Origin: Fodinibius salicampi
GTDB lineage: Bacteria; Bacteroidota; Rhodothermia; Balneolales; Balneolaceae
DNA length: 64,000 nt
Assembly (NCBI RefSeq): GCF_039545095.1
Contig: NZ_BAABRS010000002.1
Span: 558,001-622,000, forward strand
Reading direction: 5' to 3'
The notes under the pieces are model-generated. The model searched no databases. It saw nothing but the letters and a program-made list of their open reading frames with translations, and had not been told where the DNA came from. Numbering within the stretch: position 1 is the stretch's first letter; each line of letters starts with the position of its first letter. The translations under genes and the position numbers were made by a program. Below are positions 19,781 through 62,293 of this stretch, one piece after another.

Positions 19781-20374
19781 ATGATTGGAGAAGTTACAAG
19801 ATCACTGTATAGTAGTAGCAAGAACAGAAGCGATTTAGAAGATTACTGGTATGGAATTCGGGAGGGCAATACCGAAGCATTATCCCATCTATATTGCGTT
19901 TCTTATTCCTGGCTTTTCAATTATGGCTATAAGATAATTCCAAGATCAGGCTTTGTTGAGGACGCTATACAGGAACTTTTTTTAATTCTTTGGAAGAAAA
20001 GAACGGATATAAATGAGGCCAAATCAGTCCGCTCTTATCTTTTTGCCTCTCTAAGGAGAATCATTTTTCGGCGGCTGGAAAAACAGAGGAATCGTACCCA
20101 AAGAAATCATGATTATAAGGACTACCAACTGCAAGAGGCCGGGAACATAGAAAAGATGATGATCCATCTTGAAGCTGGCCAAGAGCGCAAGGAGCAATTG
20201 AAAAATGCAATGCAATCGCTTAGTCAGCGCCAGAAGGAAGCCATCTCTCTCAAATATTTTGATGGCTTGTCAAATAAGGAAATTTCGCAGGTAATGAATA
20301 TTAACAGACAGAGTGTATATAACCATGTGTCAACTGCCATTAGTAAGATGCAGGAACAGGTACAGCTAAGGTAA
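19781..20374 (+). CDS. FecI-like ECF sigma factor at head of polysaccharide locus
   Basis: A 197-residue ECF sigma factor of the Bacteroidota FecI/RpoE-like type. Region 2 is seen in LYCVSYSWLFNYGYKI and AIQELFLILWKKR (residues about 40-75), and region 4 in LSQRQKEAISLKYFDGLSNK with EISQVMNINRQSVYNHVS as the -35-reading helix-turn-helix (about 145-190). It is followed, 410 bp downstream, by the GH78 rhamnosidase gene and the long CAZyme run. Such factors in Bacteroidota are normally held by a FecR-type anti-sigma and a TonB transducer; neither is next to it here. The start ATG gives standard length. Confidence 0.9.
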   Translation: MIGEVTRSLYSSSKNRSDLEDYWYGIREGNTEALSHLYCVSYSWLFNYGYKIIPRSGFVEDAIQELFLILWKKRTDINEAKSVRSYLFASLRRIIFRRLEKQRNRTQRNHDYKDYQLQEAGNIEKMMIHLEAGQERKEQLKNAMQSLSQRQKEAISLKYFDGLSNKEISQVMNINRQSVYNHVSTAISKMQEQVQLR

Positions 20375-20534
20375 ATCGATATATTTGAGAATGCGGTGTG
20401 AAAAGGAGAAATAAGATTTATTCATTTTTTTAGCAGTAGGATTACCGTCTGGCCTCCTCTTTATAAATAGAGTTGGGCTATAAAACTAGGCAGGAAGCAG
20501 TTTGATTGAGTTAAGATGATTTTAAAAGAAGATA

Positions 20535-20626
20535 CTATAACCCTATCCCCTTGGTTATAGGTTATATGCCAGGTGTTGCTCTTGTTGTGTGTCTGAGGGC
20601 AGCCCTGGCATTTTTTATTTTTTTTT
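20535..20626 (+). ncRNA. Double-hairpin element A, upstream of GH78 gene
   Basis: Two stems in a row. P1 is a perfect 8-bp stem, CTATAACC (20535-20542) with GGTTATAG (20553-20560) and a 10-base loop. A short GTTAT linker leads to P2, ATGCCAGG (20566-20573) with CCTGGCAT (20604-20611), continued inside by GTTGC/GCAGC pairs. The P2 loop holds CTTGTTGTGT. A long T-rich run (20611-20626, one A) follows, so P2 could end a transcript. It starts 160 bp after the sigma gene stop and ends 158 bp before GH78. A related element occurs at 26303. It may be the 3' end of the sigma transcript, a small RNA or a leader; the sequence does not decide. Confidence 0.5.
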
Positions 20627-20784: not shown

Positions 20785-23700
20785 ATGAAAAAATATTTAA
20801 TATTAATTCTCATAATTATAGTTGGAATTTCATCACCTGTTTGTTCTGCTGGTAATGATGGGGAATTAAGTGTTACAAATTTACAAACAGAATATTTTGA
20901 AAATCCTATTGGGATAGATCAAGCCAATCCACGGTTAGCCTGGAAGCTTAAGAATAGTGAGCGAAATACCTTGCAAGCTGCCTATCAAATCCAGGTAGCA
21001 AAAGGAGAAAATGACTTTTCCAGTGGAAATATCATCTGGGACACGGGTAGAGTTGAGTCTGAGTCCTCTATTCACAATGTATATGAGGGACCGGATCTTG
21101 AATCAGGCCAGCGGTATTACTGGAGGGTTCGGGTATGGAATCAAAATGATGGAGTATCAGAATGGAGTAATACCTCCTTTTGGGAAATGGGACTTTTAAA
21201 TACTGATGATTGGCAGTTTGATTGGATTGAGCCGGGATTAGATCAGGATTCCTCTGAACCTCAGCCTGTGCCCATGTTGCGGACGGAGTTTTCTGTTCCT
21301 AAAGCAATTAAAGAAGCCCGGGCCTATGTGACGGCTCACGGATTGTATGAGATGGAGATAAATGGTGAAAAAGTAGGCGATCAGGTCTTCACCCCGGGGT
21401 GGACAAGCTATAATAACCGGCTGCAGTATCAAACATATGATGTTACTGAATACTTACAGTCTGGCGATAATGCCATTGGAGTTATGCTGGGGGATGGATG
21501 GTATCGCGGTTATATCGGATTTAACAATCAGCGGAATTATTATGGAGAAAACCTTGCCTTATTAGCCCAGATAAAGATTACCTATGAGGATGGCACAACA
21601 GAAACTTTTGGTACTGATGATTCCTGGAAAGCCACTACGGGTCCCATATTAAAGTCGGATATCTATAATGGGGAGGCTTATGACGCCCGCCTTGAAAAGG
21701 AGGGATGGGCAAATCCCGGTTATGATGACCGTAATTGGATTGGGGTTCGTGTTGTTTCTGATTCTGAAAGTAAAGAACAACTCGTAGCACCTGAGGGTCC
21801 TCCCGTTCGCAAAATTCAGGAGTTACGTCCGGTTGAAATTCTGAGGACTCCCGAAGGAGATACCGTTGTGGATATGGGACAAAATATGGTTGGTTGGATA
21901 CGGTTGAAGGTGTCGGGATCAGCAGGTACGAAAGTAACTATGGAGCATGCCGAGGTGCTGGACAAAGACGGAAATTTTTATACTGAAAATCTTCGCGCTG
22001 CTAACCAAATTAATACCTACACATTAAAGGGTGAAGGCGAAGAAGTATGGGAGCCGAGATTTACGTTTCAGGGGTTTCGATATGTAAAAGTAGAAGGATA
22101 TCCGGGTGAACTTACCAAAGATGGCGTAACGGGTGTGGTTATTCATTCTGATATGGAGCCTACAGGGCATTTTGAAAGCTCTAATCCCCTAATAAATCAA
22201 TTACAGCATAATATTGTTTGGGGCCAAAAAGGTAATTTCCTGGATGTCCCCACAGATTGCCCGCAACGGGATGAACGATTAGGATGGACCGGCGATATTC
22301 AGGTTTTTGCCGGAACAGCCTGTTTAAATATGGATGCTGCCGGATTTTTAACCAAATGGCTGCGCGATTTAAAGGCCGACCAATTAAGTAATGGAAGTAT
22401 TCCACACGTGGTGCCCAACGTGCTGGGAGAGGATTGGGCTGGTGCTGCCGGCTGGGCTGATGCCGGTGTGATTGTTCCCTGGACAATGTATCAGTCCTAT
22501 GGCGATAAACGCATCCTGGAAACCCAGTATGAAAGCATGAAGGAATGGGTTGAGTTTATGAGAGAGGAAGCCCAAAGTGATGAGACTACCTATTTATGGG
22601 ACAATACTTTTACTTTTGGCGACTGGCTCTCCTTTAACAGTGATGCATCTGATTATCCAGGGGCCTATACCGATAAAGAATTAATTTCAACAGCCTATTT
22701 CGCCCGTTCTACGGATTTACTTCACCGTACGGCAGAAATTCTTGGTAACAATGAAGATGCTAAAGAATACGCAAATCTGTTGGAACAGGTTAAAAAAGCG
22801 TTCCAAAGAGAGTATATAACAGCGAGTGGTAGGGTAATGTCAAATACCCAGACTGCTTATTTATTAGCCCTGAAATTTGGACTTCTACCCGATAGTTTGG
22901 AGCAGGATGCAGTAGGGCATTTAGTCGAAGATATTAATGAACGCGGGCATCTTACGACCGGATTTTTAGGGACGCCACATTTGAATCCTATTCTCAGTGA
23001 ATACGGACATGACAAAGAGGCTTATAAATTACTGAACCGTAAAGAGTATCCCTCATGGCTTTATCCGGTAACAATAGATGCAACTACTATTTGGGAGCGT
23101 TGGGACGGCATAAAGCCGGACAGTAGTTTTCAAAATCCGGGAATGAACTCCTTTAACCATTATGCCTATGGTGCTATTGGCGAGTGGCTTCATAAAAATG
23201 TAGCTGGTATTAAAGCTGAAGCTCCAGGTTATAAAAAGATTACCATTGCACCACAAATAGGTGGAAATTTGACCCATGCACGAAGTCTTTTAAATACAAT
23301 GTATGGAAGGGTGGAATCGGATTGGACGATTGATGGAGACCAATTCTTTCATACCGTTACCATTCCTGCTAACACGCGAGCAACGGTCACTTTTCTCAAT
23401 ACAACGCCAGATAGTATTACTGAAGGAGGTAAGGATTTAACAGATACGGAAGGAATACACGGGATAGAAAAGAAAGGAGATAATGTTGAAGTAAAAATCG
23501 GGTCCGGTACTTATCACTTTATTTATGGCTGGCAACACCTGGAAAAGAAATCGGGAAATAGTGATACAAATAATAAAAGCGGTGAAGAAAAAGACTTAGC
23601 TATAGACCATAAGCTTGCCGCATTAATTGCCGATAAGGATGCCAGGCAGATATTAAATGAAGAGCTGCCAGAATTAATGGACTCTCCCTGGTTGAGTCAG

Positions 23701-23811
23701 GTAATGGGATATCCTCTTGAGCGAGCGGCGCAGAGTCTACCCGGGCAATTCAGTATATCAAACGAAAACCTGCAAGCTATAGATCAAATGCTGAGCAATT
23801 TAAACCAGTGA
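20785..23811 (+). CDS. Secreted alpha-L-rhamnosidase, GH78
   Basis: Removes terminal alpha-L-rhamnose by inversion. Signal peptide (ILILIIIVGISSPVCSAG), then an N-terminal Fn3-like and bacterial rhamnosidase-N domains (about residues 30-330, e.g. WRVRVWNQNDGVSEWS, AYVTAHGLYEMEINGEKVGD), a linker domain, and the (alpha/alpha)6 barrel. The general acid is in CPQRDERLGWTGD (E497) and the likely base in TIWERWDG (E771). After the C-terminal beta domain (IAPQIGG...) an 80-residue charged helical tail containing DKDARQILNEELPELMDSPW is added. First enzyme of the locus, preceded by hairpin A and the bipartite element. Confidence 0.95.
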   Translation: MKKYLILILIIIVGISSPVCSAGNDGELSVTNLQTEYFENPIGIDQANPRLAWKLKNSERNTLQAAYQIQVAKGENDFSSGNIIWDTGRVESESSIHNVYEGPDLESGQRYYWRVRVWNQNDGVSEWSNTSFWEMGLLNTDDWQFDWIEPGLDQDSSEPQPVPMLRTEFSVPKAIKEARAYVTAHGLYEMEINGEKVGDQVFTPGWTSYNNRLQYQTYDVTEYLQSGDNAIGVMLGDGWYRGYIGFNNQRNYYGENLALLAQIKITYEDGTTETFGTDDSWKATTGPILKSDIYNGEAYDARLEKEGWANPGYDDRNWIGVRVVSDSESKEQLVAPEGPPVRKIQELRPVEILRTPEGDTVVDMGQNMVGWIRLKVSGSAGTKVTMEHAEVLDKDGNFYTENLRAANQINTYTLKGEGEEVWEPRFTFQGFRYVKVEGYPGELTKDGVTGVVIHSDMEPTGHFESSNPLINQLQHNIVWGQKGNFLDVPTDCPQRDERLGWTGDIQVFAGTACLNMDAAGFLTKWLRDLKADQLSNGSIPHVVPNVLGEDWAGAAGWADAGVIVPWTMYQSYGDKRILETQYESMKEWVEFMREEAQSDETTYLWDNTFTFGDWLSFNSDASDYPGAYTDKELISTAYFARSTDLLHRTAEILGNNEDAKEYANLLEQVKKAFQREYITASGRVMSNTQTAYLLALKFGLLPDSLEQDAVGHLVEDINERGHLTTGFLGTPHLNPILSEYGHDKEAYKLLNRKEYPSWLYPVTIDATTIWERWDGIKPDSSFQNPGMNSFNHYAYGAIGEWLHKNVAGIKAEAPGYKKITIAPQIGGNLTHARSLLNTMYGRVESDWTIDGDQFFHTVTIPANTRATVTFLNTTPDSITEGGKDLTDTEGIHGIEKKGDNVEVKIGSGTYHFIYGWQHLEKKSGNSDTNNKSGEEKDLAIDHKLAALIADKDARQILNEELPELMDSPWLSQVMGYPLERAAQSLPGQFSISNENLQAIDQMLSNLNQ

Positions 23812-23821
23812 TTATGGATAA

Positions 23822-24001
23822 GAAAATATTTCTGCAAACAACAGCCGCCACCACCCGATCATTTATCCAAATACGGCAGATTTAAAAGGCCCCCAGCTGT
23901 TGATAAATAATGGGAAACCGACGCATCTTTTCCTGGCTACACAGGGAGGGAAATATAAAACCTCATCCGGCTTTGTGTTCAAGATTGAACAAAATGAATA
24001 G
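23822..24001 (+). pseudogene. C-terminal remnant of a secreted glycosidase-like gene
   Basis: An open stretch of 59 codons with no start codon, beginning just after an in-frame TAA. It reads like the end of a beta-propeller type carbohydrate enzyme: HHPIIYPNTADLKGPQLL followed by KPTHLFLATQGGKYKTSSG and FVFKIEQNE then stop. It uses a different frame from both neighbours and fills the gap between the GH78 gene and the next one. No upstream portion is present, so most of the gene has been deleted. The ATG at 23910 of the following gene would lie inside this fragment, another reason to reject that start. Family not identified. Confidence 0.65.
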
Positions 24002-24053
24002 CAGGAGAAAGAATTTCTTTTGCCACTCTATAAAAAAGATCAAATATAGGATT

Positions 24054-26237
24054 ATGAATATTACAAGTAAGAAAATAGTTTTTTTCATTAAACTGGGATT
24101 CCTTATTCCGGTTTTATCAATGTGTTTTATTTTGGGCCTCTGGAATACGGCAGGTGCCCAGGAATCCATTGACCGGCATGCGTTGGTTAACCGTCATAAT
24201 GTAGAAATTACTGAGTTTGATTCTTTGAACTCCCTCTCCGTTGGAAATGGAGAATTTGCTTTTACCGTGGGAGCTACTGGATTGCAATCTTTCCCAGAGT
24301 TCTATGAGAATGGAATGTCGTTGGGGACCCAATCTCAATGGGGCTGGCACAGCTTCCCTAATACCGGGAACTATACAATGGAAGATGTGGCTGAGTATTA
24401 CACCACTGATGATGGCCGGGAGGTACCCTATGCTACCCAACACGATACCGGAAGAGCAGCGGAGGCCACGCACTGGCTGAGAACTAATCCGCAGCGGCTT
24501 CATTTAGGAATTGTGGGACTAGTACTGCTTAAGGAAAATGGCGAAGAAGCAGCTATATCAGATATAAAAAATGTCGATCAGAAACTGAATCTGTGGACAG
24601 GTAAAATACACAGCCGATATACGGTTGATGGGGAGCCGGTAGAGGTGGAGCTATACGGGCATCAGGACAGGGATCAGATATCCGTACGTATTCATTCCCC
24701 GCTCATCGAAGAAGAACGCCTGAAGGTGAAATTTAGATTTCCCTATGGAAGTGACTGCCATGTATGTCCTGGGTATGATTGGAGTAAACCGGAAAAGCAT
24801 GAGACGCTGTTAACAAACAAATCTGAAAACAGGGTTTTTCTTCAGAGAAAACTGGATACAACGAGCTATGTAACTGATGTCAGTTGGGAAGCTAAGGCGC
24901 AAATAAATGAAGAGGAAAAGCATTTATTTCATTTGACGCCGGATGCGGGTGAAGATACTTTTGTATTCAGCGTATTATTTCGCCAAGAAAAATTTGAAGA
25001 GGCTCCGGATGGATTTGAGGCAACCCGCCAAAACAGCCAGCAGCAATGGGAGAAATTTTGGTCGGAAGGAGGAGCAATAGATTTCTCCGGTTCCACCGAT
25101 CCCAGGGCCAATGAGCTGGAGCGAAGGGTCGTACTGTCCCAATACCTAACGAAGATCCAGACGAGCGGTTCTCTTCCCCCGCAAGAGACCGGTTTAACCA
25201 TGAATAGCTGGTACGGAAAATTTCACTTAGAAATGCACTGGTGGCATGGGGTGCATTATTCTCTCTGGGATCGCACTCATTTACTGGAAAATAGTTTAGA
25301 TTGGTATAGCAAAGCAATGTCAGGGGCACGGAAAACCGCCCAGTGGCAGGGTTATGAGGGAGTACGGTGGCAGAAGATGACCGGTCCGGGCGGTAGGAAA
25401 AGTCCCTCGGGTGTAGGAGAGGTATTAGTTTGGCAGCAGCCTCATCCCATATATTTTGCAGAGGAGATTTATCGTCAAAATCCTACACAGAAAGTTTTAG
25501 ATGAATATAAGGAACGGGTCTTCGAGACTGCCGAATTTATGGCTTCTTTTGCAACCTACGATTCAACGGATGGCCATTACCATCTGACGCGTCCCATTAA
25601 ACCTGCCCAAGAACTGTTTGAAACGATGAATACGAAAAACCCTCCTTTTGAGCTCGCATATTGGCATTATGGACTCTCTGTTGCCCAAAAATGGAAAGAG
25701 CGATTAGACCTGCCGATCAATAAAAAATGGCAAGAAGTTGCGAATAACCTTGCCCCGTTGCCCAAAAAGGACAATTTATATCTTCCAAATGCCCTTACTC
25801 CGGATGCCTATACAAACGACAAATACCGTCATGACCATCCAATGGTGGTGGGAGCGTATGGACTAATTCCCTCGGCAGAATTAGTGGATGAGCAGATCAT
25901 GAAAAATACTTTCAATGAAATTGAAAACCATTGGATATGGGAAAGTACCTGGGGGTGGGATTATCCCATGATGGCAATGGCTGCCGCAAGGCTCAATATG
26001 CCGGAAAAAGCGGTGGACGCACTTTTTATGGATGTTCAAAAGAATACGTACTTAAAAAATGGCCATAATTATCAGGATGAACGTCTCAGACTTTATTTGC
26101 CGGGCAATGGCGGACTGCTAACGGCGGTGGCCATGATGGCGGCCGGATGGGAGGATGGTCCTGATATTGATACCCCTGGTTTCCCTGATAATGGGAAATG
26201 GGATATCAAGTGGGAAGGCCTGCGAAAAATGCAGTAA
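24054..26237 (+). CDS. Secreted (alpha/alpha)-barrel glycosidase-like protein, family not identified
   Basis: About 727 residues from the ATG at 24054, which gives a clean signal peptide (KIVFFIKLGFLIPVLSMCF, cut near AGAQ); the ATG 48 codons upstream would place a charged tail before the signal. An N-terminal beta-sandwich (up to about residue 300: SVGNGEFAFTVGATGLQSF) precedes a helical barrel with WWHGVHYSLWDRTHLLENS, RWQKMTGPGGRKSPSG, ESTWGWDYPMMAMAAARLN and LPGNGGLLTAVAMMAAGW. This layout resembles GH65/GH95-like six-hairpin enzymes, and a catalytic acid is probably among the conserved Glu/Asp of the barrel, but no family is assigned. It is co-oriented with the rhamnosidases, so a rhamnose- or uronate-linked substrate is likely. 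Confidence 0.6.
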   Translation: MNITSKKIVFFIKLGFLIPVLSMCFILGLWNTAGAQESIDRHALVNRHNVEITEFDSLNSLSVGNGEFAFTVGATGLQSFPEFYENGMSLGTQSQWGWHSFPNTGNYTMEDVAEYYTTDDGREVPYATQHDTGRAAEATHWLRTNPQRLHLGIVGLVLLKENGEEAAISDIKNVDQKLNLWTGKIHSRYTVDGEPVEVELYGHQDRDQISVRIHSPLIEEERLKVKFRFPYGSDCHVCPGYDWSKPEKHETLLTNKSENRVFLQRKLDTTSYVTDVSWEAKAQINEEEKHLFHLTPDAGEDTFVFSVLFRQEKFEEAPDGFEATRQNSQQQWEKFWSEGGAIDFSGSTDPRANELERRVVLSQYLTKIQTSGSLPPQETGLTMNSWYGKFHLEMHWWHGVHYSLWDRTHLLENSLDWYSKAMSGARKTAQWQGYEGVRWQKMTGPGGRKSPSGVGEVLVWQQPHPIYFAEEIYRQNPTQKVLDEYKERVFETAEFMASFATYDSTDGHYHLTRPIKPAQELFETMNTKNPPFELAYWHYGLSVAQKWKERLDLPINKKWQEVANNLAPLPKKDNLYLPNALTPDAYTNDKYRHDHPMVVGAYGLIPSAELVDEQIMKNTFNEIENHWIWESTWGWDYPMMAMAAARLNMPEKAVDALFMDVQKNTYLKNGHNYQDERLRLYLPGNGGLLTAVAMMAAGWEDGPDIDTPGFPDNGKWDIKWEGLRKMQ

Positions 26238-26302
26238 GTCTTCTTTCACTGGCAGTTTAGCTCCATTTTTTAATTTCTAAGAGACAGATAACTCGTTCAC
26301 AT

Positions 26303-26378
26303 CTTTTCCGTGGTGGGAAAGTTATATACCAGTTATGATCCTTGTTGAGTATAGACTGGACAGACCTGGTATTTATTT
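26303..26378 (+). ncRNA. Double-hairpin element B, relative of element A
   Basis: P1 is CTTTTCC (26303-26309) with GGGAAAG (26315-26321), 7 bp and a 5-base loop. The linker TTAT leads to P2, ATACCAG (26326-26332) with CTGGTAT (26366-26372), and the P2 loop contains CTTGTTGAGT. AT-rich ATTTATTT follows. Order, linker, P2 length and loop sequence match element A, while P1 bases are different but still pair, and one P2 pair changes from G-C to A-T. It lies 66 bp after the preceding stop and 244 bp before the CE12 start. Confidence 0.5.
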
Positions 26379-26477
26379 CTGATAGAACTTGTGATTAGAG
26401 TCTCAATAAAAAGGAGTATGTACAATATTTTGGATGTCTCTCAAAAAGATAGTTTCAGATAGCTAAATAAATACCAG

Positions 26478-26547: not shown

Positions 26548-26621
26548 GTTATGTGGTGAACTCAGGATCTAATGTGTATATAGTTTTTAAATGAACTTTA
26601 ACGTTACAGTTGATAACATTT

Positions 26622-28268
26622 ATGAATCATGTGAATAGATACTTGATGTATTTTGGAGGGATACTCCTTACAATCAGCCTGTTTATGGCTAATTCGGTCG
26701 AGGCGCAAAACGCTAATGAAAGAAATATCCAGCTTCCTGTTCCAACAAATTCCGAATTACCGTCCCTCTATTTGATTGGGGATTCAACTGTTCGAAACGG
26801 ATCTGGTGACGGGGCAAATGGACAATGGGGATGGGGAAGCGTTTTGTCCTCTTATTTTGATACTGACAGAGTAAATGTAGTAAATCGAGCATTAGGAGGG
26901 CGTAGCAGCCGAACATATATTACTCAGGGATACTGGAGTCAACAAAAAGAGTTGTTAAAACCCGGAGATGTAGTGCTAATTCAATTTGGACATAACGATG
27001 CCAGTCCCATTAACGACACAAGTCGTGCAAGAGGAGTTCTCGATGGTATTGGTGAAGAAAAAAAGGATATCTTTAATAAGTTAACCAAAAAGGTAGAAAC
27101 CGTATATACCTATGGTTCTTATTTAAGAACCTATATTTCAGACATTAAGAACAAGGGAGCTACGCCAATCATCTGTTCGCTGGTGCCCACTAATGGGAAA
27201 GTGATAGATAAAGAAGACCAATTTGCGAAATGGGCGGAACAAGTGGCGGTGACTGAAGGAGTTCGCTTCCTCGATTTAAATAAAATAATAGCTCGCGAAT
27301 ATGAAAAAGTAGGACGGGATAAAGTTCAGGACTTTTTTGTTGATGACAACGTGCATACAACACGGGAAGGAGCTGAGTTTAGTGCAGAAATGGTTGTCGC
27401 GACTTTAAAAGGGCTAGAACAAAATCCGGTTGAGCCTTGGTTTTCTAAAAAAGCGGAAACTGTAGAAATGCGAAATAAAGATACCAAAGAGATGAACGGC
27501 CCGGTCGTGACCGGATACGGCGAAGGACGCTTTGAAGTTGGGGAACTTTTATATCGTGACGATTTTACAAACCCAGATGAATGGGTACCGCAAGTTGAAG
27601 AAACCGATGCGCAGACAGAACCACGCATAGATTTCTGGAATGGTTTTCTTGAGGTGGTAGTGCCCGGTCGGGGCGCAACTATTTGGAACCGAAATAAGTT
27701 CAGTGGTAATGTGGCTATTACATATAAAGTGAAAGCCCCCTCAACCTATGTGGAGGAATTGGGAATAGTAGTGCGGGATATCAATACGTTTTGGCATGCA
27801 TCTGATCCGAATGTCCCAGACGATATTTTTAATCCCGATAAGTACACAGGAGCATTCAGTTCCTATCATAAACAACAGGGATATTACGCAAGTATGGGAG
27901 GCAGAGATAATACCACTACCCGCTTCAGGCGATACCCGCGCATTCGCAACGGGGAACCGGTTGAACATATCGCTTTATCGGAAAGAGATGGCCGCAAAAA
28001 GTTTCTGATCCGGCCGGACCACACCCATACTATTCAACTAGTTACTTATGACGATGTAATTCAATATATCGTAGATGGGAATGTATACTATGAAATACAG
28101 GAAGGAGACACTGTAACCGTTTTCCGGCCGGATGGCACACAGGAACAGGTGGTTTATACCCCGGAACGTTTTCCATCATATAATGAAGGATGGTTTGGCT
28201 TTCGCCTGGTAAATACCCATCATATTTATTCTGATTTTAGGGTTTGTCGTCTTGAATCAGTCGAGTAA
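26622..28268 (+). CDS. CE12-like rhamnogalacturonan acetylesterase with C-terminal DUF6250-like domain
   Basis: An SGNH-type esterase predicted to remove acetyl groups from pectic rhamnogalacturonan. A signal peptide (GGILLTISLFMANSVEAQ) precedes block I YLIGDSTVRNGSGDG (Ser55), block III IQFGHNDAS, and block V DDNVHTT (Asp242, His245). From about residue 300 a second beta-sandwich domain (YRDDFTNPDEWVPQVE ... GATIWNRNKFSGNVAITYKV) resembles the DUF6250 module often fused to pectin enzymes. The ATG at 26622 is preferred to the TTG at 26610. It fits PL11 and the rhamnosidases as accessory deacetylase; other acyl esters are possible. Confidence 0.85.
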   Translation: MNHVNRYLMYFGGILLTISLFMANSVEAQNANERNIQLPVPTNSELPSLYLIGDSTVRNGSGDGANGQWGWGSVLSSYFDTDRVNVVNRALGGRSSRTYITQGYWSQQKELLKPGDVVLIQFGHNDASPINDTSRARGVLDGIGEEKKDIFNKLTKKVETVYTYGSYLRTYISDIKNKGATPIICSLVPTNGKVIDKEDQFAKWAEQVAVTEGVRFLDLNKIIAREYEKVGRDKVQDFFVDDNVHTTREGAEFSAEMVVATLKGLEQNPVEPWFSKKAETVEMRNKDTKEMNGPVVTGYGEGRFEVGELLYRDDFTNPDEWVPQVEETDAQTEPRIDFWNGFLEVVVPGRGATIWNRNKFSGNVAITYKVKAPSTYVEELGIVVRDINTFWHASDPNVPDDIFNPDKYTGAFSSYHKQQGYYASMGGRDNTTTRFRRYPRIRNGEPVEHIALSERDGRKKFLIRPDHTHTIQLVTYDDVIQYIVDGNVYYEIQEGDTVTVFRPDGTQEQVVYTPERFPSYNEGWFGFRLVNTHHIYSDFRVCRLESVE

Positions 28269-28604
28269 ATAGAATATTGGACCCAACAAAACTAAAGTTA
28301 AAAAAACCGGGATTGGAAACTAAATATCATTGGCTGGTTTATTCAGTCCGTTTCTAATAAATTTTAACAAGTAGGAACGGAATCTGTATGTCTCTATTAT
28401 GTTTGAGCAGGTATGCAAATCTAGATATTAAGTGAGTACCCTTGTATCCGGATGAAAATGAATATGAGTGAGGTCTAGCAAGATAGGGTAGGTTAATTAA
28501 CTGATTATGGAAGGAATGAATCGCATTAGGATTAAAGCAAATAACTACAGGGTTTAGGATTTATAAGCCCCTTTTACATTTAGGAATCTATAAAACTATT
28601 AATC
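28269..28604. other. Gene-free stretch between CE12 and GH106 genes
   Basis: 336 bases without a supportable gene. One 9-bp stem is clear: TCCGTTTCT (28347-28355) with AGGAACGGA (28373-28381, one G-T pair) and a 17-base AT-rich loop, not followed by a T-run. It resembles the structured leaders upstream of GH78 and CE12 only in being a hairpin; loop and stem sequences differ. The remaining sequence is AT-rich and probably holds the promoter of the GH106 gene. Confidence 0.4.
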
Positions 28605-43605: not shown

Positions 43606-43751
43606 TATTGGGGTATCTGATTTTACCTATAAACAATAATATTAAAAAATAAGAGTAGATACTATTAGTGGTTGTCTCTTATTAATAAAAGCGTGCCACT
43701 ATGGATTTGGTATGTCAAAAAAATAAAAGAAGAAACTTTTGATAATGATTT

Positions 43752-62048: not shown

Positions 62049-62293
62049 ATGTTAAATGAATTCAGATTTACTTCGTATCTAGTCGAAGGATATAGGTCAT
62101 GTAAAAATTACACACTTGACTTTTTTTGGGCTGATGGTACCTTGCGGAAGACAATACTGGCAAATTAGAAAGGACCGATATTTATTTGTGGTATAGAGAT
62201 TATGAAACAGAGTTGAAATTTATTCCGGACGAAAAGAAAATAACGTTCGTAGAATTTTATCACCACCATGAAAACAGTTATAACAGAAGTTGA
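62049..62293 (+). pseudogene. Possible broken small gene before fuconate dehydratase
   Basis: Two short overlapping frames read like protein. The first (ATG 62049, stop 62166-62168) encodes 39 residues with TSYLVEGYRSCKNYTLDFFW, the second, in another frame (62135-62293), contains LERTDIYLWYRDYETELKFI and DEKKITFVEFYHHHENSY. Joining them near 62150 would give one product of about 75-80 residues. The 309-bp gap holds no other feature. Family unknown. Alternatively these are chance frames in a leader region; the second overlaps the FucD start by 26 bases. Confidence 0.35.

Follow-up and report, generated by a model that had tools for sequence, protein, structure and literature searches.

A double hairpin behind an ECF sigma factor gene of Fodinibius salicampi: a probable Rho-independent terminator and its presumed decayed duplicate

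The described systems closest to a pair of hairpins between carbohydrate-enzyme genes are Rho-independent terminators, transcription attenuators and small RNAs of the DonS type. A terminator requires pairing, not particular stem letters. Bacteroides polysaccharide utilization loci carry DonS-type RNAs, a family antisense to susC homologues, and B. thetaiotaomicron is known to have many intergenic small RNAs that carry terminators (PMC7366714). Here we analysed a 64,000-nt stretch of Fodinibius salicampi DNA (the window) in which two double-hairpin elements, A and B, lie in a cluster encoding a GH78 protein, two GH106-type proteins, a rhamnogalacturonan lyase of family 11, a sulfatase, a GH31 protein and a GDSL esterase, a gene content that identifies it as a rhamnogalacturonan I cluster (pectin digestion).

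Like the DonS-type RNAs, the element is non-coding and sits in a glycan-use cluster, but it is a sense element behind a sigma factor gene rather than antisense to a susC homologue: the neighbouring sigma, GH78, 775-aa and esterase genes are all on its own strand. A and its counterpart in a congener resemble Rho-independent terminators more closely, with a stable stem and a U-run at a gene's 3' end on the coding strand, and differ from them in an extra hairpin (P1) 5 nt upstream of the terminal one (P2), conserved stem letters, a large P2 interior (~30 nt) and, in B, a degenerate U-run. We read A as a Rho-independent terminator of the sigma transcript with P1 as an accessory hairpin, and B as a decayed duplicate of it, at a probability of roughly 0.7. 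Such an element was not found described in the literature searched, subscription papers being outside its scope. Rfam gave no match in the window at the gathering score, none at A or B at a relaxed cut-off and none for the congener's copy, which agrees with the first-pass annotation that no known family fits.

Structure and relatedness of the two elements

Both sequences lie where that annotation had placed them, and the long T-run is indeed confined to A (Table 1). Folded whole, A forms P1 and P2 at -34 kcal/mol (z = -5.2 against shuffled sequence, with 0 of 200 shuffles equal), and P2 with its tail reaches -25.8 kcal/mol (z = -5.4); P2 has 8 bp and its inner stem 9 bp, and TTTTTTATTTTTTTTT follows directly. 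B starts 50 nt past the stop codon of the preceding gene. Its P2 folds at -13.1 kcal/mol (z = -2.2) and leads into a weak U-run (TTATTT); against shuffles, B scores z = -2.2 as a short piece, -0.8 to -1.4 in longer pieces and -0.2 with flanks. A further double-hairpin candidate at 62067-62128 was not upheld by its fold.

Table 1. Positions of the elements, promoter-like motifs and neighbouring genes in the window
Feature	Position	Strand	Description and basis
ECF-type RNA polymerase sigma factor gene	19781..20374	+	Directly upstream of A; Pfam Sigma70_r2, r4, ECF; orthologues in G007, G011, G001 and others
ECF-type promoter motif	20435..20462	+	AGTAG-N16-CCTCTTT, between sigma gene and A; exact match to AGTAKN{16,17}YCTCTHW
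Element A	20535-20626	+	Position as in the first-pass annotation
P1 hairpin of A	20535..20560	+	Arms CTATAACC/GGTTATAG, loop 10 nt; fold; same arms in G007
P2 hairpin of A	20566..20611	+	Arms ATGCCAGG/CCTGGCAT, plus inner stem; fold
U-run of A, 3' of P2	20611..20626	+	TTTTTTATTTTTTTTT; sequence; terminator call by script
GH78-type alpha-L-rhamnosidase gene	20785..23811	+	Downstream of A; Pfam
Gene for 775-aa protein	23910..26237	+	Upstream of B; orthologue in G007 cluster, ~76% identity
P1 of B, homologous register	26288..26325	+	ATAACT (26288-26293)/AGTTAT (26320-26325); alignment and fold
Element B as first delimited	26303-26378	+	Sequence
P2 hairpin of B	26326..26372	+	ATACCAG/CTGGTAT; fold; match of A+G007 model
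ECF-type promoter motif	26415..26443	+	After B, before esterase gene; exact match, spacer 17
GDSL/SGNH esterase plus DUF6250 gene	26610..28268	+	Downstream of B; Pfam
ECF-type promoter motif	28370-28397	+	Exact match to consensus
ECF-type promoter motif	43654-43681	+	Exact match to consensus

A and B have in common GTTATAT(G/A)CCAG...CTTGTTG(T/A)GT...CAG(C/A)CCTGG(C/T)ATTT. In a comparison of the window's 25 intergenic regions with one another, the A-B pair ranked first of 600 pair and strand comparisons (z = 6.4 and 6.2 under two scoring schemes). For a covariance model trained on A and the congener's copy, with B left out, B was the top match in the window other than A (24.7 bits, E = 0.0074, against 15.9 bits for the one after it). 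The two elements also share strand and cluster. We therefore accept from their sequences that A and B are homologous, as the first-pass annotation had proposed in calling them related double hairpins. That their similarity arose by chance between two terminators appears very unlikely, even though shuffle tests of the pair alone were of moderate significance (p = 3e-4 to 5e-3) and B was borderline for the same model at whole-genome scale (E = 0.45).

What did not survive is the claim that P1 differs in its bases between the copies and yet pairs fully in both. The CTTTTCC/GGGAAAG helix of B, on which it was founded, does not correspond to P1 in A: the A-B alignment extends upstream (AAGAAGATACTATAACC versus AAGAGACAGATAACT, read by eye) and also downstream beyond the U-run, and since the similarity continues upstream of CTTTTCC, the homologous P1 arms of B are ATAACT/AGTTAT. 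Longer B segments fold with this helix and without the CTTTTCC/GGGAAAG one. This register is our own reading, and the automatic alignment used for covariation (A6) puts the P1 arms of B elsewhere. With ATAACT/AGTTAT as the true arms, the P1 covariation was an alignment artefact. The change noted in P2 is present, as a single covarying pair that is G-C in A, G-U in the congener and A-U in B, but covariation did not exceed that of shuffled alignments (341 of 500 were as high), three sequences being too few for such a test.

A homologue in a congener and the search for others

The key approach was to examine the regions 3' of orthologues of the upstream sigma gene, which revealed a clear homologue in the congener G007, whose sigma factor is 58-61% identical in amino acids to that of the window. 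This copy starts 38 nt past the sigma stop and consists of GCTATAACC...GGTTATAGC, a linker, ATGCCAGGC...GCCTGGTAT and TTTTTT; its fold gives z = -5.3 and -4.7. A aligns with this region at p ~2e-8, and no other sigma-downstream region in the set came near that value. The next gene differs (GH78 in the window, another gene in G007), which suggests that the element travels with the 3' end of the sigma gene.

Conservation is concentrated in the stems. Across the arms of P1 and the outer stem of P2, 31 of 32 positions are identical (all of P1 and 15 of 16 in P2) and the P1 loops share TATCCCC, whereas the P2 loops show no relationship. Between the two genomes, the sigma gene is saturated at its four-fold degenerate sites, with 8 of 34 identical, so that either the stem letters are under selection or the stems were exchanged later than the gene. 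On this comparison the letters appear more conserved than a plain terminator would need, leaving a residue that the terminator reading does not explain. Conserved arms around a differing interior, and two copies in one locus with one in a congener, might also point to a short inverted-repeat cassette that is mobile or recombining and has spread through copying, without selection as RNA. We regard this as highly improbable, because the element occurs only twice in the 3.9-Mb genome and no further in relatives, and stands behind the orthologous sigma gene in both genomes, which points to inheritance in place. The P1 dyad was also considered as a DNA operator and dropped, as the spacer between the same arms is 10 nt in A versus 18 nt in G007.

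Beyond this congener the element was scarce. It is absent 3' of the sigma gene in the congeners G001 and G011, so that two of the four congeneric orthologues are without it. When 196 relatives and 394 members of the phylum (some genomes in both sets) were searched with models, the credible matches were limited to A, B and the copy in G007, although the filters of such large searches can lose weak copies such as B. No full match was obtained in a DNA search of 98 relatives, and a model of P2 only (R1) recovered A and B alone from 59 relatives, with a single weak match within coding sequence. The pattern ATRCCAG...CTGGYATTT, sought in 294 genomes, yielded chance matches and unrelated hairpins, with the double hairpin in G007 only. 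The element was not found at 80 loci with GH78 relatives or in the viral contigs and plasmids searched, nor was a counterpart of B at the esterase and 775-aa orthologues of G007. Weak matches of model R2 in G051, G014, G130, G013 and G032 were inside coding sequence or badly paired.

With only one other searched genome carrying it, the element looks ordinary. The first-pass annotation saw in A and B the pattern of a conserved structured RNA and named the lack of further homologues with compensatory changes as the outcome that would count against this; the searches came close to that outcome, and the description stands weakly, on one clear homologue, one covarying pair and a distribution in which half of the four congeneric orthologues lack the element. 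The form itself is not unique either: in a background scan 3 of 33 candidate terminators had an upstream hairpin, among them an unrelated double-hairpin terminator of G007 (L134, minus strand, 5731) with TTTCGGTT/AACCGAAA, then a 14-bp stem ending GTGGCTT and a U-run.

Promoter-like motifs and their bearing on A

Comparison of the gaps between sigma and anti-sigma genes in relatives yielded the motif AGTAK-N16/17-YCTCTHW, which probably serves as the promoter recognised by the ECF sigma factor of the cluster. The window has four occurrences where 0.26 would be expected (0 of 100 shuffles reached four), always on the plus strand, between genes and in this cluster, an enrichment that is suggestive rather than independent, the motif having been chosen partly from such sites. 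In relatives it is likewise found between genes for sigma and FecR-like proteins, and ahead of other genes (L103, L106, L131, L132 and L173). Many family members of the window's sigma gene are immediately followed by a gene for a FecR-like anti-sigma factor, whereas this one is not. Just 3' of B, at 26418-26466, a short frame (MYNILDVSQKDSFR, by eye) resembles the N-terminus of a FecR-like anti-sigma factor and may be a remnant or chance.

The motif lies 3' of the element at B and in G007 but 5' of it at A, where it precedes P1 by 100 nt, a stretch free of long open reading frames, and it was not found between A and GH78. This order counts against a terminator of the sigma transcript and would suit a regulated leader, in which transcription starting at the ECF promoter at 20435 stops at P2 unless a signal permits read-through into GH78, whose start lies 160 nt beyond a strong predicted terminator. 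At A only, a terminator separates a promoter-like motif from a carbohydrate-enzyme gene, which does recall a transcription attenuator. We nevertheless consider such a leader unlikely: no antiterminator fold or pairing was found, with P1 and P2 both kept when the 315-nt leader is folded; the element is not tied to the gene downstream, as G007 and the GH78-relative loci illustrate; and in G007 the motif follows the element instead of preceding it.

The same promoter motif and strong terminator could instead delimit a trans-acting small RNA of ~155 nt, transcribed from the ECF promoter or released by cleavage of the sigma 3' UTR. The lack of a long open reading frame, the conservation of stem letters at saturation and the small RNAs of Bacteroides glycan loci (PMC7366714) would all be in keeping with this. 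It seems quite unlikely, however, given that A and G007 have unrelated P2 loops, the part in which a seed would be exposed, that such a promoter was not found before the element in G007, and that two other congeners lack the element after the sigma gene. There is also a small chance of a broader arrangement in which the double hairpin, with constrained stem letters, makes up in this genome the 3' half of a leader or small RNA that is driven by the ECF factor and controls rhamnogalacturonan enzymes; a protein or a partner RNA would recognise it, and it would have been duplicated within the cluster.

Transcript ends in the rhamnogalacturonan cluster

Among the roles first suggested for the elements (small RNA, shared transcript end or cis-acting leader), the transcript end is the best supported and the other two less so, because A and its counterpart in G007 resemble canonical terminators 3' of orthologous sigma genes. 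In both, hairpins are followed by T residues (TTTTTTATTTTTTTTT in A, six in G007) that abut a stable stem, and the promoter motif 3' of B and of the G007 copy fits a unit ending at the element. B suits the terminator reading less well, its U-run being poor.

Under the terminator reading, polymerase leaving the sigma gene would allow P2 to fold, and the U-run would then free the transcript; P1 could shield the 3' end or aid folding. B would be a duplicate of the intergenic segment of A, old and partly decayed, placed after the 775-aa gene (a protein without a Pfam match) and ahead of the esterase promoter motif. The elements would in this way mark borders of transcription units, with the cluster's ECF sigma factor restarting the next one.

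If the element is just a terminator, it helps to delimit the transcripts of a rhamnogalacturonan cluster under ECF control and brings with it a testable promoter motif for the sigma factor. If it is true that the stem letters matter beyond pairing, the element would represent a new point of RNA control over the carbohydrate use of these bacteria.
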